Shown here: positions 11,512 through 28,485 of the stretch, one piece after another | How positions within the stretch are numbered: the first letter of the stretch is position 1 | How the letters are laid out: the number at the start of each line of letters is the position of its first letter | Assembly (NCBI GenBank): GCA_947584375.1 | Contig: CANPWL010000007.1 | Coordinates: 30,179-94,178 of the forward strand | DNA from: an uncultured Clostridia bacterium | GTDB lineage: Bacteria; Bacillota; Clostridia; Oscillospirales; Ruminococcaceae | Length of the DNA stretch: 64,000 nucleotides | Direction of reading: 5' to 3' | Program-made: the position numbers and the translations under genes | The notes under the pieces: model-generated | Told to the model about the DNA's origin: nothing | The model's database searches: none | What the model saw: only the letters and a program-made list of their open reading frames with translations

Positions 11512-13278
11512 TTATTTATAAAGCTCTCTCTTAACATATGTTGTGTGGAGAATATGATGAGCCTTTTCACTTCCCGGTTCGCCGAAGAATTCTTTGTAAA
11601 CTTGTTTGATAGCCGGGTTTTCGTGAGATTTTCTAATTGATTTGTTAGCGTCATTATTGTAAAGAACGCTTGCTCTTAATGCCTGAATGTCAACAGTATT
11701 TCTTACAGAACCAGGCTGCTGAGGCTGACCGCCTCCGTTTACGCATCCGCCCGGACAACCCATTATCTCGATGAAGTGGTAATCAGCTTCTCCGCTTTCA
11801 ACCTTTTTAAGAAGTTCTTTAGCATTTGCAAGCCCAGAAACTACTGCAATTTTTACATTCATACCTGCAACGTCATAGTTTGCTTCTTTAATGCCCTTTG
11901 TTCCGCGAACTTCTTTGAAGTCAACGCTTTCAAGCTCTTCACCTGTCAATGTTTCAACAGCAGTACGAAGTGCAGCCTCCATAACTCCGCCAGTCGCACC
12001 GAAGATAACTCCTGCACCGGTTGAGATGCCCAAAGGATCGTCAAACTCTTCATCGCCTAGTTCGAGGAACTTGATACCTGCTCTTTCAATCATTCTTGCA
12101 AGTTCTCTTGTAGTAATAGAAATGTCAACGTCAGGAACACCTGCTGCGTCCTCGTCATCTCTTCCTATTTCAAACTTCTTAGCTGTACAAGGCATAACCG
12201 CAACAACAACAATATCCTTAGGATCGAGTCCCATTTTTTCTGCATAGTAAGTTTTAACAGTTGCACCGAACATCTGCATAGGTGATTTGCAGCTTGAAAG
12301 ATTTTCTGTTAATTCAGGGAAGTAGTGTTCGCAGTATTTGACCCATCCCGGCGAGCAGGAGGTGATAAGCGGAAGTTTTCCGCCGTTTTGAACCCTGTCC
12401 ACAAATTCGTGAGCCTCCTCCATGATTGTAAGGTCAGCTCCAAAGTCAGTATCAAATACCTTGTCAAAGCCCAGTCTGCGAAGTGCAGCAGCCATTTTGC
12501 CCTCTACATCTGTTCCGATAGGAAGTCCGAAAGCCTCTCCCAGAGCGGCTCTTACAGCAGGAGCTGTCTGGACAATAACAGTTTTGGTTTCGTCAGCGAT
12601 AGCCTCGAAAACTTCTGAAGTGTTGTCTTTCTCGTATAACGCACCCGTAGGACAAACAGCAATACACTGTCCGCAGGATACGCATGAGGTGTTTCCTAAA
12701 TCATCTTCAAAAGCACAGCTTATGTTTGTATTAAAGCCTCTTTCGTTAGCACCTATAACACCGATGCCTTGCGTTTTAGCACAAGCCGCTACACAGCGTC
12801 TGCAAAGAATACACTTGCTGTTATCTCTGACCATATGAGCAGATGAGCAGTCAAGAATTGACTCAGTTTTTGCTCCGTCATAAATACTTTCATCTTCTAT
12901 CTTGTAATCTTTAGCAAGCTTTTGAAGTTCACAGTTTCCGCTTCTTACGCATGAAAGACACGTTCTGTTGTGGTTTGAAAGAATGAGCTCTAATGTTTTC
13001 TTTCTTGAGTCGATTACCTTTGGTGTGCTTGTGAATATGTTCATGCCCTCTGAGATAGGGTATACACAGGAAGCAACAATTTTCTTAGGTCCAAAGCCGT
13101 CGCCTCTTTTTTCCTGCGCCTCAACAACGCAGATACGGCAAGCTCCTATTTCATTGATCTCCTTCAAGAAACAAAGTGTAGGAATCTCGACATTTGCAAG
13201 GCGAGCCGCTTCAAGGATCGTTGAACCTTTAGGAGCCTGATAGTCTGCTCCGTTGATTTTAATATTAATCATATCCAT
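11512..13278 (-). CDS. hydA: [FeFe]-hydrogenase catalytic subunit (HydA/HndD-like)
   Basis: N-terminal 2Fe-2S domain and 4Fe-4S clusters; H-cluster motifs TSCSPGW, MPCTAKKFE, EIMGCPGGCVNGGGQP; C-terminal small-subunit-like segment. Confidence 0.95.
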   Translation of the reverse strand: MDMINIKINGADYQAPKGSTILEAARLANVEIPTLCFLKEINEIGACRICVVEAQEKRGDGFGPKKIVASCVYPISEGMNIFTSTPKVIDSRKKTLELILSNHNRTCLSCVRSGNCELQKLAKDYKIEDESIYDGAKTESILDCSSAHMVRDNSKCILCRRCVAACAKTQGIGVIGANERGFNTNISCAFEDDLGNTSCVSCGQCIAVCPTGALYEKDNTSEVFEAIADETKTVIVQTAPAVRAALGEAFGLPIGTDVEGKMAAALRRLGFDKVFDTDFGADLTIMEEAHEFVDRVQNGGKLPLITSCSPGWVKYCEHYFPELTENLSSCKSPMQMFGATVKTYYAEKMGLDPKDIVVVAVMPCTAKKFEIGRDDEDAAGVPDVDISITTRELARMIERAGIKFLELGDEEFDDPLGISTGAGVIFGATGGVMEAALRTAVETLTGEELESVDFKEVRGTKGIKEANYDVAGMNVKIAVVSGLANAKELLKKVESGEADYHFIEIMGCPGGCVNGGGQPQQPGSVRNTVDIQALRASVLYNNDANKSIRKSHENPAIKQVYKEFFGEPGSEKAHHILHTTYVKRELYK

Positions 13279-13291
13279 TTAAAACGCCTCC

Positions 13292-15085
13292 CTACTTCTT
13301 TGATATTGCGCCGAACTTACATTTTTCAATACAAGCTCCGCACTTAATACATTTACTTTGATCGATTTTATGTGGATTTTTAACGCTTCCTTCAATAGCT
13401 CCGGCAGGACACTGTCTTGCACAAAGAGTACATCCCTTACATTTATCCGGATCGATAACGTATTTGAGAAGGTCTTTACAAACTCCTGCAGGACAGGTCT
13501 TGTCAACAACGTGTGCAATGTACTCGTCTTTAAAATAGCGAAGAGTTGAAAGAACAGGGTTCGGCGCTGTTTGTCCGAGTCCGCAAAGGGAATTGTTCTT
13601 TATGTAATAGCATAACTCTTCGATTCTATCTAAGTCCTCAAGTGTTGCCTGACCTTTTGTAACCTTGTCAAGAAGCTCATATAAGCGCTTTGTACCGATA
13701 CGGCAAGGCGTACATTTTCCGCAGGATTCGTCAACTGTGAACGCCAAGAAGAACTTAGCAATATCAACCATACAGTTGTCTTCGTCCATAACGATAAGTC
13801 CTCCTGAACCCATCATCGAACCGATAGCGATAAGGTTATCGTAGTCAATTTCAATATCATAATGTTCAGCAGGAATACATCCGCCCGAAGGACCTCCTGT
13901 TTGCGCAGCCTTAAATTTCTTTCCGTTAGGTATTCCGCCGCCGATCTCTTCAATAATAGTTCTCAGCTTTGTACCCATTGGGATCTCGACAAGACCGGTG
14001 TTTTTGATTTTACCGCCGAGTGCAAATACCTTTGTACCCTTTGATTTTTCTGTACCCATTGATGCAAACCAATCTGCTCCGTTTACAATGATTTGTGGTA
14101 TGTTTGCATATGTTTCAACATTATTGAGTATAGTAGGCTTGCCGAACAAGCCCTTTTCAGCAGGGAACGGAGGACGAGGACGAGGTTCTCCTCTGTTGCC
14201 CTCAATTGACGTCATAAGAGCAGTTTCCTCACCGCAAACGAAAGCTCCTGCACCAAGACGCAGACCAATGTCAAAGTCAAAGCCTGTGCCGAAGATGTCT
14301 TTACCTAAAAGTCCGTATTCTCTTGCCTGATTGATAGCAATTTCCAAACGCTTAACAGCGATAGGATATTCAGCACGAACGTAAATATAACCCTGTGAAG
14401 CTCCGATTGCATAACCTGCAATAGCCATTGCTTCCAAAACAACGTGCGGGTCTCCCTCTAAAACAGAACGATCCATAAATGCTCCCGGATCGCCCTCGTC
14501 GGCATTACAGCAAACGTATTTTTGGTCAGCGTCAGGAACGATATTACGGGCAAGCTTCCACTTCATACCTGTCGGGAAGCCGCCGCCTCCACGTCCGCGA
14601 AGACCCGAATCGAGAATAGTCTGGATAACCTCATCAGGCGTCATTTCGGTAAGTACCTTACCCAAAGCCTCATATCCGCCTGTTCCTATATATTCTTCAA
14701 TATTTTCAGGGTTGATAACACCGCAGTTTCTCAGTGCAACACGGTGCTGCTTTTTGTAAAACGCTGTGTCATTAAGTGATTTAACGCCTTTGTCGGTAAC
14801 AGTTTCATCGTATACAAGACGTGAAACGATTCTTCCCTTTAACAGATGCTCCGAAACGATTTCAGGAATATCGTCTACCTTTACCATTGAGTAGAATGTT
14901 CCCTCAGGATAGATGATCATAATGGGTCCTAAAGCGCAAAGTCCGAAGCATCCGGTCTTTACTACTTGTACCTCATCGGATAATCCGTTTTTAGCAATTT
15001 CGCTTTCCAGCTTTTCAACGATTTGTGCACTTCCGGATGAAGTACAGCCTGTTCCGCCGCAGACTAAAACGTGTGAACGATACAT
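13292..15085 (-). CDS. hydB: NuoF-like NADH-binding subunit of electron-bifurcating-type hydrogenase (HydB/HndC-like)
   Basis: GLRGRGGGGFPTGMKW, CNADEGDPGAFMDRS, GAGAYxCGEETAL-like motif, SCGKCTPCRIGT, C-terminal 2x4Fe-4S ferredoxin domain. Confidence 0.95.
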   Translation of the reverse strand: MYRSHVLVCGGTGCTSSGSAQIVEKLESEIAKNGLSDEVQVVKTGCFGLCALGPIMIIYPEGTFYSMVKVDDIPEIVSEHLLKGRIVSRLVYDETVTDKGVKSLNDTAFYKKQHRVALRNCGVINPENIEEYIGTGGYEALGKVLTEMTPDEVIQTILDSGLRGRGGGGFPTGMKWKLARNIVPDADQKYVCCNADEGDPGAFMDRSVLEGDPHVVLEAMAIAGYAIGASQGYIYVRAEYPIAVKRLEIAINQAREYGLLGKDIFGTGFDFDIGLRLGAGAFVCGEETALMTSIEGNRGEPRPRPPFPAEKGLFGKPTILNNVETYANIPQIIVNGADWFASMGTEKSKGTKVFALGGKIKNTGLVEIPMGTKLRTIIEEIGGGIPNGKKFKAAQTGGPSGGCIPAEHYDIEIDYDNLIAIGSMMGSGGLIVMDEDNCMVDIAKFFLAFTVDESCGKCTPCRIGTKRLYELLDKVTKGQATLEDLDRIEELCYYIKNNSLCGLGQTAPNPVLSTLRYFKDEYIAHVVDKTCPAGVCKDLLKYVIDPDKCKGCTLCARQCPAGAIEGSVKNPHKIDQSKCIKCGACIEKCKFGAISKK

Positions 15086-15103: not shown

Positions 15104-15466
15104 CTAACTAATTGTATAATCAGAAACTATCTGACCTCTTATCAAATGACGGTCGATAACTTCCTTTGCTTTTTCAGCGGTCATTTTAACGTATGTTACT
15201 TTATCTTTACCCGGTTCCATAACTTCAACTATTGGTTCATATTTGCACATACCGATACAGCCGGTTTGTGTAACCATAACCTTGTCTCCGATACCCTTTT
15301 CAGCAACGCCTTCTACAAAAGCGTTAAGCACAGGTCTTGCACCGGCAGCTATTCCGCAGGTCGCCATTCCGACAACTACACGGGTAACATTATCGTCTTC
15401 TTCACGAAGTCCGACTTGTCCCTGCATTTTTTCACGGATAGCTCTTAACTCTTCAAGTGATTTCAT
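15104..15466 (-). CDS. Thioredoxin-like [2Fe-2S] protein (HndB-like)
   Basis: MATCGIAAGA ... TQTGCIGMCKYEP cysteine pattern; sits in the hydrogenase operon. Confidence 0.88.
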   Translation of the reverse strand: MKSLEELRAIREKMQGQVGLREEDDNVTRVVVGMATCGIAAGARPVLNAFVEGVAEKGIGDKVMVTQTGCIGMCKYEPIVEVMEPGKDKVTYVKMTAEKAKEVIDRHLIRGQIVSDYTIS

Positions 15467-15495: not shown

Positions 15496-16053
15496 TTAAA
15501 TGATAAGATTTTGATCAACCTCAGCTTTGTTGGATTTTAGAAAATCCAATATGTAAGCTGAAACCTCCGGGACATCAAAGGGAACATCGCCTAATATTTC
15601 ACGAAGCTCTCTGGTGTCCAATGTGAAAGATTTGTCATTCACCGTATAGGTGTAGACAAAATCAATATTTTTGTTCAATGTTATCAGACTGTGCATTGTA
15701 CTCGACATATCGCCAAGTGGCATTCTGTCAATGTGATTAAGTGTGAAAACCGCAGTGACCTGCGTTCCCTCGCCGACTTTTGATTTTATTTCAAACGAAC
15801 CGTCTGTATTTTCAGCCGCCTCTTTGAAAAACGGAACTCCAAGCCCAACCTTTCTGGTAGTTCTTGTTGTGAAAAACGGGTCGCACACCTGTGAAACCTG
15901 TTCATCAGTCATTCCGCAGCCGTTGTCGTCGATCTCAATAATCAGCTTATTTTCATTTGAATCTGCAAAAACTGATATTTCAACAAGCGAAGCGTTTGCC
16001 TTAACAGAATTTTGTGCAACATCTAATACATTGAGTGAAATTTCAGTCATCAT
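15496..16053 (-). CDS. Histidine-kinase-like ATPase (HATPase_c) without a phosphoacceptor domain
   Basis: N-box-like VLDVAQNSVKA, IEIDDNGCGM, TTRKVGLGVPF, GEGTQVTAVF. Confidence 0.85.
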   Translation of the reverse strand: MMTEISLNVLDVAQNSVKANASLVEISVFADSNENKLIIEIDDNGCGMTDEQVSQVCDPFFTTRTTRKVGLGVPFFKEAAENTDGSFEIKSKVGEGTQVTAVFTLNHIDRMPLGDMSSTMHSLITLNKNIDFVYTYTVNDKSFTLDTRELREILGDVPFDVPEVSAYILDFLKSNKAEVDQNLII

Positions 16054-16550
16054 TATTCTGCATATTTTGCCAGAATACCATCGACGTCATCCACTGTCAG
16101 ACGACCGTAAACATCATCATTTACTGTTAGTACGGGAGCAAGTCCGCAAGCACCGATGCATCTGCAGTCAACAAGTGTAAACTTACCGTCGGATGTTGTT
16201 TCACCGCCGTTGATACCCAACTTTTTAGATAACTCGTCAAAAATGTCGCCTGAGCCCTTTACATAACAAGCTGTACCAAGACAAACGGAAATAGTGTATT
16301 TTCCTTTTGGATTCAGCGTGAATTGCGAGTAGAAGGTAGCTACTCCGTAAATTTTCTCAAGCGGGATATCCATTTCATGTGCGATTATCTTCTGCACCTC
16401 AATAGGAAGATATCCGTAAATTTCCTGCGCTTTCTGAAGAATAGGCATTAATGCTCCCTTATCACTTTTGTGAGAAGCTATAACTTCTTTTAACTTAGCT
16501 TCTTGTTCTTTGGTGCCGGAGAAAGGGATAGAACATTTTTTTGCTGCCAT
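16053..16550 (-). CDS. hydC: NuoE-like 2Fe-2S subunit of NAD-linked hydrogenase (HydC/HndA-like)
   Basis: GVATFYSQF, CLGTACYVKG, CRCIGACGLAPVLTVND. Confidence 0.93.
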   Translation of the reverse strand: MAAKKCSIPFSGTKEQEAKLKEVIASHKSDKGALMPILQKAQEIYGYLPIEVQKIIAHEMDIPLEKIYGVATFYSQFTLNPKGKYTISVCLGTACYVKGSGDIFDELSKKLGINGGETTSDGKFTLVDCRCIGACGLAPVLTVNDDVYGRLTVDDVDGILAKYAE

Positions 16551-16987
16551 TTGTGAACCTCCTTAATATTTAGTGTAAAATCATACATAGTTAAACAGCT
16601 GAATTTCTAGTTTATATAATATAACTGTTCAGCTCAATTCTGGAGAAAGAGTGATTTTTCTCCTATAATACCTTAATAAGTGCATAATAATCACTTATAG
16701 ACTATTATAACATATTATTAAATAAACTGCTATAAACATTATAAACATACAGAAGTCATTTTTTTTGTTTAAACTGTACAATTTGTTCAAGTATATATGG
16801 ATTGGTATTTTTTGTAATTGTAAAACAAGTGAAATAGTCTTGAAAACAAGTTGAAAAAATGTTATTATAAAATATATATGTTTTAAAATTAAATTTAGAA
16901 ATATTTAAGTTCCGTTATGTAAAAAAGATATATATTAAATCATATTGAATTTTGCAATTTTCGTATAGGAAAGGAATGGTGAATGTT

Positions 16988-17338
16988 ATGACAATTTCAG
17001 AGGTAAAGGAATTTCTTGAGGCAAAAATACTTTGCGGCGAAGAGTATATCGGGAAAGATGTTCATACAGCTTGCGGATCTGATATGATGAGCGACGTTCT
17101 TGCATTTGTCAAGGATCAGTCTGTGCTGATAACAGGACTTAACAATCCGCAGGTCATAAGAACTGCCGAAATGATGGATATTATCTGCATATGCTTTGTA
17201 AGAGGCAAGATCCCTGATGAAACTATTATTGAAATGGCGGCAGACAGAGGACTTGTTCTTATGGCAACAGATATGAGAATGTTTGAAGCTTGCGGAATTT
17301 TATACGAAAAGGGACTTCGCGGGGGTGCAAAGCATTGA
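16988..17338 (+). CDS. DRTGG-domain protein
   Basis: MTISEVKEFLEAKILCG ... DMMSDVLAFVKDQSVLITGLNNPQVIRTAEM resembles DRTGG-type domains. Exact start uncertain (16976, 16979 or 16988). Confidence 0.7.
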   Translation: MTISEVKEFLEAKILCGEEYIGKDVHTACGSDMMSDVLAFVKDQSVLITGLNNPQVIRTAEMMDIICICFVRGKIPDETIIEMAADRGLVLMATDMRMFEACGILYEKGLRGGAKH

Positions 17339-17760
17339 GTAATTCTATGACTTTTAAATATACTGTTGACGGAGAGGATTTTACCCGCGCAGGCGAGGCA
17401 TCCAGCAATGTTAAAGGGAAACTCAAGCAAATGGGAGTAAACCCCGATGTTGTGAGAAAGGTAGCCATTGCCATGTATGAGGGAGAGATCAATATGGTCG
17501 TTCATGCAAAGGGCGGCGATATTACCGTTGAGGTAACTCCGAAGGAAATAATTATGACGCTGAAAGACGTAGGTCCGGGAATACCCGATGTGGAAAAGGC
17601 TATGCAGGCAGGGTATTCGACTGCAAATGAGAATATAAGGTCGCTCGGTTTCGGTGCAGGTATGGGATTGCCCAATATGAAAAAGTATTCTGATGAACTT
17701 ACAATAGATACAGAACTTGGCGTGGGAACTACTGTTGTAATGAAGGTAAAAATAAACTAG
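17335..17760 (+). CDS. Anti-sigma-factor-like serine/threonine-kinase-type ATPase
   Basis: AMYEGEINMVVHAKGG, LKDVGPGIPDVEKAMQAGYSTA, GFGAGMGLPNMKKYSD (HATPase_c). TTG start overlaps the previous stop codon. Confidence 0.85.
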   Translation: MSNSMTFKYTVDGEDFTRAGEASSNVKGKLKQMGVNPDVVRKVAIAMYEGEINMVVHAKGGDITVEVTPKEIIMTLKDVGPGIPDVEKAMQAGYSTANENIRSLGFGAGMGLPNMKKYSDELTIDTELGVGTTVVMKVKIN

Positions 17761-17811
17761 TCATTTGAATAGACACACTATACATATTTTATAAGAAATG
17801 AGGTGTGGGGA

Positions 17812-19086
17812 ATGGAGAATTTTATAAATTCGGTAAGGCTTGATAAGGATTTGTGCAAGGGCTGTATACATTGTATAAAGCGCTGTCCTACTCAGGCTAT
17901 AAGAGTAAGAAACGGAAAGGCTCATATAATTCCTGAATTTTGTATAGACTGCGGTGAATGTATAAGGGTTTGCCCGCATCACGCAAAGAAAACCCATTAC
18001 GATCCGCTGGATATTTTAGATAAATATGAATATAAAGTAGCGCTTCCTGCGCCGTCTTTTTATGCTCAGTTCAATAATTTAGAGGATATAAATATTGTTT
18101 TGCGTGCGTTAAAGCATATGGGCTTTGACGATGTGTTCGAGGTTTCTGCGGCGGCAGAGCTTGTTTCTCAGCTTTCAAGAGAATACATAGAAAAGCATAA
18201 GGATAAAGCACCGTTTATAAGCTCGGCTTGTCCGTCGGTAGTGCGGCTGATAAGGGTGAGATTTCCTAATCTTATCGAGCATATTCTGCCAATAAACGCA
18301 CCTGTTGAAATAGCCGCCGAGGAGGCAGCTAAGAAAGCTCTGAAAGATACTGGACTTCCAAGAGAGAAAATAGGGATAGTCTTTTTGTCTCCGTGTCCTG
18401 CCAAGGTAACGGCGGCGAAGTATCCGATAGTTAATGAAAAATCTGAAATAGACGCAGTTGTTGCAATAAAGCACGTTTATAAAGAAATCCTGCCGTATAT
18501 GGTCGAGGCTCAGAACGAGAGCGACGACCTTTTGCAGGCGGGGAAAATAGGCATAAGCTGGGGAGCGTCAGGCGGAGAAGCAGGAGGACTTTTAACGGAC
18601 AGCTATCTTGCCGCTGACGGCATAGAAAATGTCATAAAGGTATTAGAAGAACTTGAAGATCAGAAGATCTCAAACCTTGACTTTATAGAGCTTGACGCCT
18701 GTTCAGGCGGTTGTGTAGGCGGAGTTTTGCAGGTGGAAAATCCTTATGTTGCAAAGTCAAAGCTGAAGCATCTAAGAAAATATATGCCTGTTGCAAAAAA
18801 TCATATTGAAGAATCAAACGGAGTTAATAAGGCATACTGGGATAAGGATTTAGAGTATCAGCCTGTATTTAACTTAGGACGTGACTTTGTTGACGGTTTG
18901 GCGAAGATGGAGCAGGTCGAACAGCTTTGTGATAAGCTGCCCGGTCTTGACTGCGGTTCGTGCGGTGCCCCGACCTGTAAGGCGTTAGCTGAGGATATTG
19001 TCAGGGGAATCGCAAATGAGAAGGATTGTATTTATCTTCTTCGTGAGTATATACATAAATTGTCAAGTGATTTGAAAAAGATTTAG
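17812..19086 (+). CDS. [FeFe]-hydrogenase-like Fe-S protein with a divergent H-cluster domain
   Basis: Two 4Fe-4S motifs (CKGCIHCIKRCP, CIDCGECIRVCP); hydrogenase-like segments SSACPSVV, LSPCPAKV, DACSGGCVGGVL; C-terminal LPGLDCGSCGAPTCKALAEDI Fe-S domain. Confidence 0.88.
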   Translation: MENFINSVRLDKDLCKGCIHCIKRCPTQAIRVRNGKAHIIPEFCIDCGECIRVCPHHAKKTHYDPLDILDKYEYKVALPAPSFYAQFNNLEDINIVLRALKHMGFDDVFEVSAAAELVSQLSREYIEKHKDKAPFISSACPSVVRLIRVRFPNLIEHILPINAPVEIAAEEAAKKALKDTGLPREKIGIVFLSPCPAKVTAAKYPIVNEKSEIDAVVAIKHVYKEILPYMVEAQNESDDLLQAGKIGISWGASGGEAGGLLTDSYLAADGIENVIKVLEELEDQKISNLDFIELDACSGGCVGGVLQVENPYVAKSKLKHLRKYMPVAKNHIEESNGVNKAYWDKDLEYQPVFNLGRDFVDGLAKMEQVEQLCDKLPGLDCGSCGAPTCKALAEDIVRGIANEKDCIYLLREYIHKLSSDLKKI

Positions 19087-19116
19087 TTACACCTAAAACG
19101 AAAGGTAAGGTATAGT

Positions 19117-19461
19117 ATGACGGCTTCTGAACTTATTGATAAAGCGGGATTTAAGGTGTTAAATTTACCCGATGAAAATAAAGAAAGAAATATAAGCGGT
19201 GTGTATTGCTGCGACTTATTAAGCGTTGTAATGTCAAAAGGCTTTGAGGACTGCGTATGGATAACCATTATGGGAAACATAAACGCAGTTGCAGTTGCGG
19301 CACTTACCGAAATGAGCGTTATTGTTCTTGCTGAGGGAACGGCAATAGATGAAAATATGCTCCCTAAGGCTGAGATGCAGGGTATAACGGTTGTGCAGTC
19401 AGACAAGCCTATCTATGAAACGGCAGTTTTGATTTACAACCTGCTTAAAGAAAATGCTTAG
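19117..19461 (+). CDS. DRTGG-domain-like protein
   Basis: Topology similar to 16988..17338 (CCDLLSVVMSKGFEDCVWITIMGNINAVAVAAL); adjacent to the hydrogenase-like and PHP genes. Confidence 0.65.
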   Translation: MTASELIDKAGFKVLNLPDENKERNISGVYCCDLLSVVMSKGFEDCVWITIMGNINAVAVAALTEMSVIVLAEGTAIDENMLPKAEMQGITVVQSDKPIYETAVLIYNLLKENA

Positions 19462-20179
19462 CCTGTCTTACGATTTACATATACATTCCTGCCTGTCGCC
19501 CTGCGGTGATAATGAATCTACCCCTGCGAATATCGTCGGAATGGCTTACGTCAAAGAGCTTGATGTTATAGCGCTGTGCGACCATAACACCTCAAAAAAC
19601 TGCGTTGCGGCAAGCGAGGTGGCAAAGGCTTACGGCAAGACCCTTATCTGCGGAATGGAGCTTACCACTGAGGAGGAAGTACACGTTGTATGTCTTATGC
19701 CCGGTTTGGATAAAGCACTTGAGCTTGATGAATATGTAAATCAAAGAATAATGCCTGTTGAGAATAATCCCGATATTTTCGGCGAACAACTAATAATGAA
19801 CAGCGATGACGAGATTATCGGACACGAGAACAAGCTGCTTATCAATGCAACGACTATTTCCTTTTCAAAGGTGTTTCCGTTGGTTGAAAGTTTGGGCGGA
19901 GTTGCTATACCTGCTCACATAGACAAGCAGGCAAACTCACTTTTGGCAAACTTAGGTTTTATCCCGCCGGATTCTACATTTAAAACAGTAGAGCTTAAAA
20001 ATCTCAATAACCTGCCGAACCTTAAAGCTCAGCACGATTACTTAAACAACTGTAAGGTCATAACAAGCTCAGACGCACACTATCTTCGGGATATAAACGA
20101 GCCTGTTAATTTTCTGCATGCTGAGGAAAATTCAGCGGAGGCTGTTATTGAGGCATTAAAAAATCCAAAGATTTTGTAG
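19454..20179 (+). CDS. PHP-domain metal-dependent phosphoesterase
   Basis: YDLHIHSCLSPCG, ALCDHNT, GMELTTEEEVHVV, IPAHIDKQ, TSSDAHYL metal-ligand pattern. ATG overlaps the end of the previous gene. Confidence 0.88.
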   Translation: MLSLSYDLHIHSCLSPCGDNESTPANIVGMAYVKELDVIALCDHNTSKNCVAASEVAKAYGKTLICGMELTTEEEVHVVCLMPGLDKALELDEYVNQRIMPVENNPDIFGEQLIMNSDDEIIGHENKLLINATTISFSKVFPLVESLGGVAIPAHIDKQANSLLANLGFIPPDSTFKTVELKNLNNLPNLKAQHDYLNNCKVITSSDAHYLRDINEPVNFLHAEENSAEAVIEALKNPKIL

Positions 20180-20232
20180 ATGTTTTATAAATCAGGGTTT
20201 GAAAAAAATTGCGTATGAATGGAGGATTTAAA

Positions 20233-20604
20233 ATGAAACAATGCTGTCTTCACGAATCGGGAGAGGATTATTTAGAAACCATTTTAATACTTCACAATAA
20301 AACAGGATATGTGCGCTCTATTGATATTGCAACAGAGTTGGGGTATTCAAAGCCGAGCGTGAGCCGTGCTATGGGTATTCTGAAAGCAAACGGATATATA
20401 ACCGTCGAGCCGTCGGGGCAGATAGTTCTTACAGACGAGGGCAGAAAGAAAGCGGAGTCGGTATATCACAGGCATTTAGTAATAACCGATTTTCTGGAGG
20501 GTTTAGGCGTATCGAGAGAAAACGCCGAGCTTGACGCTTGCAAGATAGAGCATATTATTTCGGAGGAGACTTTTGCGAGGATAAAGGAGAAGTGCACTGA
20601 TTAG
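20233..20604 (+). CDS. DtxR/MntR-family metal-dependent transcriptional regulator
   Basis: ESGEDYLETIL ... YVRSIDIATELGYSKPSVSRAMGILKANGYI ... LTDEGRKKAESVYHRHLVITDFL. Start after ggagg RBS. Confidence 0.88.
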   Translation: MKQCCLHESGEDYLETILILHNKTGYVRSIDIATELGYSKPSVSRAMGILKANGYITVEPSGQIVLTDEGRKKAESVYHRHLVITDFLEGLGVSRENAELDACKIEHIISEETFARIKEKCTD

Positions 20605-24888: not shown

Positions 24889-27800
24889 TTGAAAATGAAA
24901 AGAAAAGCTTTAAGTGTTATAAGCTGTTTAGCACTTTTGCTTAGCTCATTGCCATCTACGGCAGTTTTCGTTTCAGCTGCGGAGACAACAACGACTAGTC
25001 CTGGCGATCCGCAGTATGTTACCATTAATGGAACTGATAAGACAAAACATGCTGTTTTCGCTAATGGTACAGATATTGAGGTTACTTATGATGCAGAGAA
25101 AGGAACGAATACTGTAACATGGACTGATGCGGAACAAGCTAAAAACAAAATACAGTCAGTTCCAACAGACGCAGATGTATTTGCAGGATGTCATGGTAAT
25201 GCTACATCAGTTGGCACAGATAATCCTGTAAAAATCACAATTAACGGAGCACACCTTAATACTGTTTACGGCGGAGGACTTCATGAGTCAACTGTTGGAA
25301 ATGTAGAAATAACAGTTAAAGGTAAAGCAGAACTTAATTGGGTTTGCGGAGGCGGAGCTAACGCTCTCATTCATGACGATTGTTCTAGCGGCGCTTGGGA
25401 GAGCGATGCAAACACTTCTAAAACTGTAGTTAATAATGCAGTGATCAATATTGAAGATGGTGCTGTTGCAGATGCTGTTTATGGCGGAGGTCAAGGTAAC
25501 AGCAAAACTGACAAGACAACTATAAACATTAAAGACGGTACATTTGATTCTGTATGTGCCAGCGGTTCTAACGGTTATACAGGCACCGCAGATGTTAATA
25601 TTGAAGGCGGTACTATTAAAGATGTTAGGTCTGTAACTAGAGGTACTATTGAAAGCTCAGATGTTGCAGTTACAGGCGGTACCATAGATAATCTTTACAT
25701 AGGCGGAAGCGACGGAGAAAATATTACAGGTACTGTTAATAATTCAAATGTTGACATCACAGGCGGTACTGTTAAAGAGTTACACGCAGGTAAATCAAAC
25801 AACACGACTTTGGATGTAGCACAGCCGGAATACTCATTCTCAGCTGATCCAAGTTCTGTTGATAAGTACAACGCAGACATTGAAACTAAAAAGGATGAGG
25901 CAAACGCTTATTACTACTTCAAGGCTTACAAAGCTGACGGTGAGGAAGCTAACGGCAGTGAATTGGCAAAGAATCTTACTAAAATCGTAATGCCGATGAC
26001 AGGTTCCCTTGATAACAAGGCTTATCAGTTTGCATTTGTAATGGCAAACGGCGAAACTGTTGTAGCTACTGATGTAAAAGAAGGTGACGCATGGAAAGCT
26101 ACCAGATTAACATGTAAAGACGGAAGCTATGTAGATACAAACTACGACGCTATTCATCTGTTCGGCGGAAGACATAATGACGATACATTAGTTGAATCAA
26201 CTGACGTTACATTAGACGGAACCACCCACGTACAAACCGTATGGGGCGGCGGCTGGCATAAATCTTATACCGGCACAACTAAGGTAACAGTAAAGAATAA
26301 TGCAGAGGTTAAGGGTATCCAAGGCGGAGCTGCTGCATTATTTGCAGGCACAAACTGCAACACAGCGGAATGTCCAGCTAACGGCGGCAAAACATCATGT
26401 ATGTCGAAGCCATCAGGAAACACAAAAGATGATTATGATGTTCCTGAAAACGCACGTGTTCAAAAAGCAGAGGTAATAGTTGAAAGCTGCAAGCCATATA
26501 CAACACCAAGCGGGGCTCTATGTCAAACTATGATTTACGGCGGCGGTGAAAGTTTAGCATACACAGGCGAATGTTCAGTAACAATCAATGGCGGAGACTT
26601 TGGTACTGACGGAATAGTATATCCTGCCGGCTCAAACGGTTACACAGGCAAGTCTTCTCTTGTAGTTGACGGAGAGGTTACAATTCCAAAAGTTGCTTCT
26701 GCAAAGAGCGGAATTGTTAAGAGTGCTGACATTGAAATAAAGAACGGTACTGTAACAGAACTGACTTTGGGTATGATTGAAAGTCCCGAAGGCTATGGCG
26801 AATTAGGAGCTAGCGATGTAAAAGTATCAGGCGATGGTACAGTTAGCAATGTTGTGTTTGGTCATAAGAATGTTGAAGATGAAATCAAACCTGAAAGTGA
26901 TGAAGGCTATACTTTAACAGCTGACGGCGGAACAATAGAACAAGTCGCTGGTGAAGATGTTGATTATACAAAGCAAGACCTAGTATGTGAACACTCTAAG
27001 TATAATCATACTGAGGATGTACCAGCTAAGCCTGCAACTTGTGCTGAAGACGGTACTTATGCTTACTACAAGTGCGGAAACTGCGGACGCTACATTGCAG
27101 ATGATACTGATGATCATACAGGTAAGCCCGTAGACGTTACTAATAAAGCAGGCGACGCTGTTGATACTGATAAGATCGTAATGACAGCAGGCAACACACA
27201 CCACGTATTTGATAACGCTCAGGTAGTTGCAAAGGTTCCTGCAACTTGCTTAACAGACGGTAAAGAAGCATATGCTATATGTACTGTATGTAAAAAGCAA
27301 ATAGCAAAGGCTACACCTACTGCTTGGTCAGATCCGGCACAGACAATTCCAACAGAATATTCATTTGAGAATGTTGACAGTGAAGATGATTTAGTTATTA
27401 ATGCAACAGGACATACATTGGTTAATGTTCCAGCAACAGAGGCAACATGTACAAAAACAGGTTTGACTCAGGGAACTAATTGTTCAGCTTGCGGAGCTAT
27501 CATTGTTCCTCAATATACAGTAGCAATGAAAGATCATACACCGGATCCAAAGAAGGTAGCTAAAGTAGATGCTACATGTACAACTCCTGGTTACACAGAG
27601 GGTACTCAGTGTTCAGTTTGTAAGCAGATTTATGAGGGTCATGAATTGATTCCTGCATTAAATCACAATTTTGAAAAATACACATATAACAATGACGCTA
27701 CATGTACAGTAGACGGAACAAAGACAGCTAAATGTACACGTTGTGAAGTAAAGGATACAATACTTGATCCGGATCATCCTGCAGCACATACACCTGAGAA

Positions 27801-28485
27801 ACTCGATGCAGTAGATGCAACTTGTACATCAACAGGTTTGACAGAGGGTTCTAAGTGTTCAGTTTGTGGTGCAGAGCTTGTTAAGCAGTTAGCTACACCA
27901 ATGATTCCACATACACCTGTAACTGACGAAGGTTTTGCAGCAACTTGTACAAAGTTAGGTTTGTCAGAAGGTTCACACTGCTCAGTATGCGGCGGCGTAA
28001 TCGTAGCTCAGGTTGTACTTCCTGTAAAGGGACACAGCTACAAGGACGGTGTTTGCACAGTTTGCGGTGCTACAGAGCCTACAAATGGCAATACTGCAAC
28101 AACGACGAATCCTACTACAATCACTACTACTACTGCTAAACCTACTATCCCAGCTCAGGTAAATGCAGTTAAGCAGGCTAAAATCAAGAAGCTTACTGTA
28201 AAGAGCAAGGCTAAGAAAAAGATTACTGTTTCATGGGCTAAGGTTAAAGGCGCAAAGGGATATCAGGTTGAAGTTTCTAAGAGCAAGTCATTCAAGAAGA
28301 GCGGTAAGATTCTTACTAAGACATCTAAGAAAGTAAAGATCAACATCAAGAACTCTAAGATCAAGAGTAAGAAGACATACTACGTTCGTGTAAGAGCATA
28401 TGCAACTTATAAGAATGCTAGCGGCGCTACAAAGAAAGTATATAGCAGTTGGAATAAGAAATTGAGAAAGGTTAAAGTTAAGTAA
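24889..28485 (+). CDS. Large secreted repeat protein: beta-solenoid-like N-region, Cys-rich repeats, Thr-rich linker, Lys-rich C-terminal FN3-like domain
   Basis: Signal peptide (ALSVISCLALLLSSLPSTAVFVSAAE); repeated VYGGG/NIEGGTI motifs; repeated ATCTxxGLTEGxxCSVCG units; C-terminal AKGYQVEVSKSKSF ... YYVRVRAYATY. TTG start. Confidence 0.85.
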   Translation: MKMKRKALSVISCLALLLSSLPSTAVFVSAAETTTTSPGDPQYVTINGTDKTKHAVFANGTDIEVTYDAEKGTNTVTWTDAEQAKNKIQSVPTDADVFAGCHGNATSVGTDNPVKITINGAHLNTVYGGGLHESTVGNVEITVKGKAELNWVCGGGANALIHDDCSSGAWESDANTSKTVVNNAVINIEDGAVADAVYGGGQGNSKTDKTTINIKDGTFDSVCASGSNGYTGTADVNIEGGTIKDVRSVTRGTIESSDVAVTGGTIDNLYIGGSDGENITGTVNNSNVDITGGTVKELHAGKSNNTTLDVAQPEYSFSADPSSVDKYNADIETKKDEANAYYYFKAYKADGEEANGSELAKNLTKIVMPMTGSLDNKAYQFAFVMANGETVVATDVKEGDAWKATRLTCKDGSYVDTNYDAIHLFGGRHNDDTLVESTDVTLDGTTHVQTVWGGGWHKSYTGTTKVTVKNNAEVKGIQGGAAALFAGTNCNTAECPANGGKTSCMSKPSGNTKDDYDVPENARVQKAEVIVESCKPYTTPSGALCQTMIYGGGESLAYTGECSVTINGGDFGTDGIVYPAGSNGYTGKSSLVVDGEVTIPKVASAKSGIVKSADIEIKNGTVTELTLGMIESPEGYGELGASDVKVSGDGTVSNVVFGHKNVEDEIKPESDEGYTLTADGGTIEQVAGEDVDYTKQDLVCEHSKYNHTEDVPAKPATCAEDGTYAYYKCGNCGRYIADDTDDHTGKPVDVTNKAGDAVDTDKIVMTAGNTHHVFDNAQVVAKVPATCLTDGKEAYAICTVCKKQIAKATPTAWSDPAQTIPTEYSFENVDSEDDLVINATGHTLVNVPATEATCTKTGLTQGTNCSACGAIIVPQYTVAMKDHTPDPKKVAKVDATCTTPGYTEGTQCSVCKQIYEGHELIPALNHNFEKYTYNNDATCTVDGTKTAKCTRCEVKDTILDPDHPAAHTPEKLDAVDATCTSTGLTEGSKCSVCGAELVKQLATPMIPHTPVTDEGFAATCTKLGLSEGSHCSVCGGVIVAQVVLPVKGHSYKDGVCTVCGATEPTNGNTATTTNPTTITTTTAKPTIPAQVNAVKQAKIKKLTVKSKAKKKITVSWAKVKGAKGYQVEVSKSKSFKKSGKILTKTSKKVKINIKNSKIKSKKTYYVRVRAYATYKNASGATKKVYSSWNKKLRKVKVK

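Follow-up and report, generated by a model that had tools for sequence, protein, structure and literature searches.

The six genes at positions 16988-20604 of the 64,000-nucleotide window analysed here, which was taken from contig CANPWL010000007.1 of an uncultured Clostridia bacterium (Ruminococcaceae; assembly GCA_947584375.1), all lie on the + strand and are divergent from a - strand hydrogenase operon running from 16550 to 11512 in the order hydC-HATPase-fdx-hydB-hydA (Table 1). The first five encode a DRTGG-domain protein (DRT1), a GHKL ATPase (HATP1), an [FeFe]-hydrogenase (HydS), a second DRTGG-domain protein (DRT2) and a PHP-family protein (PHP). Comparison of their sequences across genomes establishes that they form one unit, that members of this unit are fusion partners, that their active sites have been preserved and that HydS is an [FeFe]-hydrogenase of group D. 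We propose, with about even confidence, that the unit is a cytosolic H2- or redox-responsive switch, composed of a SpoIIAB-like kinase and a phosphoesterase, which acts on the bifurcating hydrogenase and related ferredoxin/NAD hubs.

Conservation, variants and fusions of the unit

A preliminary description of this DNA had associated the gene set with hydrogenases, and a survey of neighbourhoods across genomes finds this link conserved. The loci compared (L numbers) comprised 26 from relatives, 80 named loci, which are the best-matching ones and are biased to close relatives, and further loci from an evenly sampled phylum set. All three sets show the order DRT1-HATP1-HydS-DRT2-PHP beside hydC-HATP2-fdx-hydB-hydA, HATP2 being the ATPase encoded in the hydrogenase operon, and because its first five genes retain their order throughout the phylum, the six-gene set goes far beyond what chance would produce. 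Among the testable cases around 142 HydS loci, HATP1 was found in 134 of 139, DRT1 in 129 of 139, DRT2 in 130 of 137 and PHP in 121 of 137. HydABC or HATP2 lies no more than 8 kb from HydS in 80 of 89 loci (on the opposite strand in 43 and on the same strand in 33), and in L056 and L058-L061 the cassette is located inside the hydrogenase operon itself.

Among 399 genomes of the phylum (G numbers), HydS was detected in 160, DRT1 in 172, HydS together with DRT1 in 158, PHP in 155, HATP2 in 169, HATP2 together with DRT1 in 163, HydS, DRT1, PHP and HATP2 all together in 147 and any of the four in 178; these are raw counts in which shared ancestry is ignored. HydS occurs without DRT1 only in G293 and G445, which belong to one family, and G445 has HATP1 fused to HydS (L186). 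Among close relatives, DRT1 is present in 27 of 27 genomes with a group D HydS and absent from 33 of 34 genomes without one, the match in the exceptional genome being weak, while five near-complete genomes of the window's own genus have neither HydS nor DRT1. One full cassette together with hydABC was seen on a contig labelled Anaerolineaceae (Chloroflexota; L114), where horizontal transfer or mis-binning may be responsible.

Gene fusions join HATP1 to HydS in one genome (L186), HydS to DRT2 in one family (L187, L188), DRT1 to HATP1 in two families (L200, L252-L257), tandem CBS domains to HATP1 (L192, L199, L205) and PHP to HATP2 in one family (L249-L251), in further genomes of which long open frames span both. 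The last of these fusions ties the hydrogenase-operon ATPase to the cassette. That DRT1-HATP1-HydS-DRT2-PHP is one conserved unit, and that HATP2 belongs to it as well, is well supported by such comparisons.

Another question is whether these genes can stand without HydS. Units of DRT1-HATP1-DRT2-PHP-HATP2 that lack it were identified in L232, L233, L235, L238 and L244, HATP2 accompanying DRT1, DRT2 and PHP in such modules, and a further HydS-less unit adjoins hydABC (L268). In all six HydS-less units tested, HATP1 carries two CBS domains, a pattern as if one sensor had been swapped for another. In five genomes (G316, G186, G242, G216 and G426; the HATP1-HydS locus itself was read for G316 and G426), DRT1-DRT2-PHP-HATP2 is unlinked to HATP1-HydS, and both halves are retained. 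Several variant units directly follow rex (c14; Pfam CoA_binding and Put_DNA-bind_N). In L231, DRT1-HATP1 is located upstream of rnfCDGEAB, the same neighbour clusters recurring in L192, L194, L205, L233 and L234, and [FeFe]-hydrogenases are still encoded in 20 of the 20 genomes checked. Both the HydS-less units beside rex, rnf or hydABC and the membership of HATP2 (15496-16053) go beyond the preliminary description.

HydS, a putative sensory hydrogenase

The protein first described as hydrogenase-like and Fe-S-containing is, judged by its sequence, a group D (M2e) putative sensory [FeFe]-hydrogenase. The Pfam scan revealed Fe_hyd_lg_C (PF02906, 115 bits), two N-terminal [4Fe-4S] motifs (Fer4) and PF04060 (FeS), and no PAS domain. 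The H-cluster cysteines C143, C198, C300 and C304 are all present and are invariant in 19 aligned sequences. An Ala (A142, in ISSACP) replaces C299 of the group A proton path and a Ser (S196, in FLSPC) replaces M353; the absence of C299 and the change of M353 to Ser or Thr are the criteria for group D that we drew from PMC8163306. The proton path proposed for this group (S249, E252, D265 and E289 in TamHydS numbering; PMC10407848) corresponds to S256, E259, D272 and E296, the last three being invariant in the same alignment, and C384, C387, C392 and C409 form a C-terminal Cx2Cx4Cx16C motif. In the tree, HydS is placed inside the group D clade with support of 100/100, apart from group A and the PAS-bearing group C, whose labels rest on Pfam architecture and NCBIfam.

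TamHydS, the group D (M2e) hydrogenase of Thermoanaerobacter mathranii, is catalytically active, with low turnover and raised H2 affinity (PMC8163306). HydS resembles this enzyme (PMC8163306, PMC10407848, PMC13104023) in its N-terminal F-domain, the SxxACP, SPC and ACxGGC motifs, the absence of C299, the change of M353 to Ser, the C-terminal Cx2Cx4Cx16C, the lack of PAS and the adjoining hydrogenase operon. Moreover, the two TamHydS peptides that the published primers imply are both encoded in L163, where the gene order is DRT1-HATP1-HydS-DRT2-PHP; the genus of TamHydS appears from this to bear the same cassette. No AraC gene is located beside hydS in L163, and since the downstream flank in L162 and L163 is DRT2, the published label of 'AraC family regulator' for the TamHydS neighbour probably belongs to a mis-annotated DRTGG protein.

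Could HydS instead be a metabolic enzyme that feeds electrons to a partner, with its neighbours regulating HydS alone? TamHydS does catalyse H2 turnover, but at a low rate (PMC8163306), the unit persists where HydS is missing, and HydS is found fused to domains of the signalling type; we regard this explanation as extremely unlikely.

The PAS-linked HydS of group C (M2f), represented by T. maritima HydS, R. albus HydS and Thermoanaerobacterium HfsB, is likewise a putative sensory [FeFe]-hydrogenase and shares the C-terminal Fe-S motif, and its regulatory role is backed by genetic evidence (PMC11837493). It differs from the protein studied here in the presence of PAS and in its separate clade, and the Hfs operon has a serine-phosphatase homologue instead; no DRT, HATP1 or PHP gene was found near group C HydS in the three loci examined (L073-L075). 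HydS-like open reading frames of 767-885 amino acids also occur near some cassettes (L187, L199, L202 and L257), and those of L187, L199 and L202 fall in the PAS-type group C clade, so that a group C gene can lie close to one of group D.

In L236, L239, L241, L255 and L261, some of them from single-contig genomes, frameshifts or a stop break the hydS reading frame, and the other cassette genes stay. Selenocysteine or other recoding was considered and rejected, as the junctions examined (those other than L255 and the first L239 pair) are frameshifts or stops; the interruptions look like decay or like assembly or sequencing errors.

Partner proteins and the proposed switch

In the proposed switch, HydS, as a slow group D hydrogenase, would be the sensor, and we infer that H2 is its signal; the state of the H-cluster would produce a conformational change that is passed to HATP1 and to DRT2. 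HATP1, as a SpoIIAB-like GHKL ATPase, would receive the HydS signal and act as a kinase, while DRT1 and DRT2, both with an invariant D-x-x-S...T site, would be adaptors serving as its phospho-acceptor substrate or as the ligand-binding part. PHP would be a metal-dependent phosphoesterase that reverses the modification and returns the switch to its starting state, under the control of its partner HATP2. The output would most likely tune the activity of electron-bifurcating HydABC, the presumed target, and elsewhere of Rnf, rather than act directly on a promoter.

The AlphaFold model of DRT1, with a predicted local distance difference test (pLDDT) score of 91.7, matches the DRTGG structures 2ioj and 3l2b/3l31 and the N-domain of HPr kinase. 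DRT2 of the window reaches 23.2 bits against PF07085, slightly below the cut-off of 25.2, which is exceeded by the DRT2-type domain of L187 (30.1 bits) and by DRT2 of L198 (29.0 bits). Residues D32, S35 and T49 of DRT1 are at least 99% conserved in 152 homologues, and D33, S36 and T50 of DRT2 are conserved in 150; D-x-x-S plus T, with equal spacing, is thus common to both proteins and practically invariant in approximately 150 sequences of each. For PHP (pLDDT 96.7), the best PDB folds are 3o0f, EndoQ, RNase AM and 2yb1. Its metal site is intact, with H9, H11, D43, H44, E69, H77, H155, D207 and H209 essentially invariant in 143 homologues, in which C17 is invariant as well.

These folds bear on an alternative in which the ligand of the DRTGG domains, and of any CBS domains, is an adenine nucleotide or a dinucleotide and is hydrolysed by PHP, so that hydrogenase or Rnf flux is matched to energy charge and H2. 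Crystals of the CBS-DRTGG region of family II pyrophosphatase (3l2b, 3l31), which has the same DRTGG fold with a CBS pair alongside, were obtained with AMP and Ap4A (PMC10742508). Some HATP1 proteins have a CBS pair fused to them, and the matches to PHP include EndoQ, RNase AM and an amidohydrolase with bound AMP. However, nucleotide binding in the pyrophosphatase has been assigned to CBS and not to DRTGG alone, whereas DRT1 and DRT2 are separate, stand-alone proteins, mostly without CBS, next to a GHKL ATPase as effector rather than a pyrophosphatase, and the conserved unit contains no nucleotide synthase. We consider a nucleotide signal of this kind unlikely.

HATP1 has the GHKL fold, and its N-box (ExxxN) and G boxes (G1, G2) are conserved in 153 homologues. 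The closest NCBIfam family is SpoIIAB (TIGR01925; 59.1 bits against a cut-off of 135), RsbW reaching 25 against 145, and the PDB profile matches are SpoIIAB (E 3e-11). With SpoIIAB and RsbW it shares the fold and the ATP-site motifs; it differs from them in scoring below the family cut-offs, in an extra SLGFGAGMGL lid, in having HydS and DRTGG proteins as partners and in lacking a STAS or sigma partner. Of the initial idea of an ATPase resembling sigma-factor regulators, the SpoIIAB-like fold therefore stands, while the STAS or sigma partner was found in none of the loci examined. A second HATP1-like gene (165 bits; 9077, + strand) was observed directly after PHP in L104.

Would HATP1 nevertheless hold a sigma factor or another regulator and free it when HydS sees H2, thereby changing hyd expression? 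SpoIIAB is its closest family, and across 59 loci the divergent promoters of hyd and the cassette are enriched in Rex-like sites (mean best mismatches 3.66, against 4.49 for shuffled sequences), which marks the region as regulated. However, no STAS, PP2C or sigma gene was seen in the unit, the sole STAS match in the source genome being on a contig other than that of the cassette, HATP1 does not reach the NCBIfam anti-sigma cut-offs, and the DtxR-like sixth gene is essentially restricted to the genus. Such a transcriptional partner switch appears to us very unlikely. The preliminary description had proposed an H2/redox relay controlling hydrogenase expression or activity, of which the conserved signalling unit is upheld and a direct transcriptional output is not; because the conserved unit holds no DNA-binding gene, that proposal is weaker for direct control of expression than for control of activity.

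Compared by description and position, HATP2 resembles HydE of Acetobacterium woodii (Awo_c27000), a histidine-kinase-like ATP-binding protein encoded in the hydABC operon and absent from the purified enzyme, for which a role in assembly or signalling was suggested (PMC3315566). The difference is that HATP2, being fused to PHP in one family, has a partner, which also provides one for the HydE-type ATPase, hitherto an orphan in hydrogenase operons. The absence of HydE from the purified enzyme, as well as the cassettes within hyd operons (L056, L058-L061), would also suit GHKL ATPases that are chaperone-like factors in the assembly or protection of HydABC or of Rnf, HydS then serving as a test or donor protein. 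Nevertheless, the same genus includes genomes with hydABC but without the cassette, and both the adjacency to rex and the exchange of CBS for HydS look regulatory; a function in assembly or repair is, in our opinion, distinctly unlikely.

Several points weigh against the kinase-phosphoesterase switch. H2 does not reduce the C-terminal cluster of TamHydS (PMC13104023), which complicates any account of the signal route. The roles of HATP1, DRT1, DRT2, PHP and HATP2 are predictions from sequence, the PHP fold is as near to nucleases and nucleotidases as to phosphatases, the STAS partner usual for SpoIIAB-like kinases is absent in the loci examined, and at 9 of 89 loci no hydrogenase operon lies 8 kb or less from HydS.

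Signal transmission by group D sensory hydrogenases has been described as open (PMC8163306), and the single idea put to the test, that the C-terminal cluster changes its redox state, was not confirmed (PMC13104023). Fusions and co-occurrence now provide a short list of candidate partners for HydS, namely HATP1, DRT1, DRT2, PHP and HATP2. The unit sits on enzymes that set H2 output and is present in ~ 40% of the 399 phylum genomes, and genomes from gut and rumen frequently contain related sequences. More tentatively, it may represent a new signalling class with exchangeable sensors, in which a fixed core (the GHKL kinase-like protein, two DRTGG adaptors, PHP and the second GHKL ATPase) would receive its input from HydS (H2) or CBS (adenine nucleotides) and would govern HydABC, Rnf and, via the rex linkage, the NADH regulon; we see this as possible, though doubtful. 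A literature search for DRTGG in connection with hydrogenase and PHP found nothing, most subscription journals being outside its reach.

Layout of the locus and its promoter region

The coordinates confirm the arrangement given in the preliminary description, that is, six co-directional genes divergent from the hydrogenase operon, with overlaps at 17335/17338 and 19454/19461. Its domain calls (DRTGG, ATPase, hydrogenase-like Fe-S, DRTGG, PHP and DtxR-like) were reproduced by Pfam, with DRT2 below threshold. HATP1 starts either with TTG at 17335, overlapping DRT1 by 4 bp, or alternatively with ATG at 17347; HydS starts with ATG at 17812, a GTG being located upstream at 17803, and the start of PHP (19454) overlaps the end of DRT2 (19461) by 8 bp. 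The source genome has two Fe_hyd_lg_C genes, hydA and hydS.

Table 1 Features of the cassette, the divergent promoter region and the hydrogenase operon in the window (aa, amino acids)
Feature	Positions	Strand	Basis or remark
hydA, group A6 catalytic [FeFe]-hydrogenase	11512-13278	-	NCBIfam NF040763 901 bits, cut-off 765
hydB, flavin/Fe-S subunit	13292-15085	-	Open reading frame and HydB profile matches across loci
Small thioredoxin-like [2Fe-2S] ferredoxin-like protein	15104-15466	-	PF01257 21.2 bits; NCBIfam 2Fe-2S ferredoxin 45 bits
HATP2, GHKL ATPase within the hydrogenase operon	15496-16053	-	Pfam HATPase_c
hydC, NuoE-like [2Fe-2S] subunit of bifurcating hydrogenase	16053-16550	-	PF01257 182 bits
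Perfect palindrome ATAAGTG-N9-CACTTAT, candidate operator	16676-16698		Divergent promoter region
Candidate cassette promoter TTGAAA-17-TATTAT	16840-16868	+	Consensus scan only; block conserved in genus members
DRT1, stand-alone DRTGG-domain protein, 116 aa	16988-17338	+	Pfam PF07085 29.4 bits, cut-off 25.2
HATP1, SpoIIAB-like GHKL ATPase, predicted kinase, ~141 aa	17335-17760	+	Pfam HATPase_c, HATPase_c_2
HydS, group D (M2e) putative sensory [FeFe]-hydrogenase	17812-19086	+	Fe_hyd_lg_C, motifs, tree
DRT2, second stand-alone DRTGG-domain protein, 114 aa	19117-19461	+	PF07085 23.2 bits
PHP-family metallo-phosphoesterase, 241 aa	19454-20179	+	Pfam PHP
DtxR/MntR-like regulator, accessory	20233-20604	+	PF02742 55.7 bits, PF01325 42.7 bits

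The DtxR-like gene, which had been counted among the components of the cluster, contains both Pfam domains and scores below the MntR equivalog cut-offs (98 against 153 and 76 against 138). We rejected it as a core component, as it is confined among the surveyed loci to genus members and one other locus (L082). The palindrome has a single exact copy in the source genome. With at most two mismatches it was found in 8 of 8 cassette-bearing genus loci checked and was absent in five cassette-less members; it occurs only in genus members bearing both the cassette and the DtxR-like gene, whose product may bind there. As a widespread operator it was rejected, no copy being found beyond the genus set. 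A Rex box was also sought in the window's own divergent promoter, where none was detected at up to three mismatches, and the region between the two operons has no Rfam match to an RNA element. Elsewhere in the window, positions 24889-28485 encode a secreted-looking protein of 1198 amino acids with repeated Cys-rich motifs of the CSVCG type and an Fn3-like C-terminal stretch.

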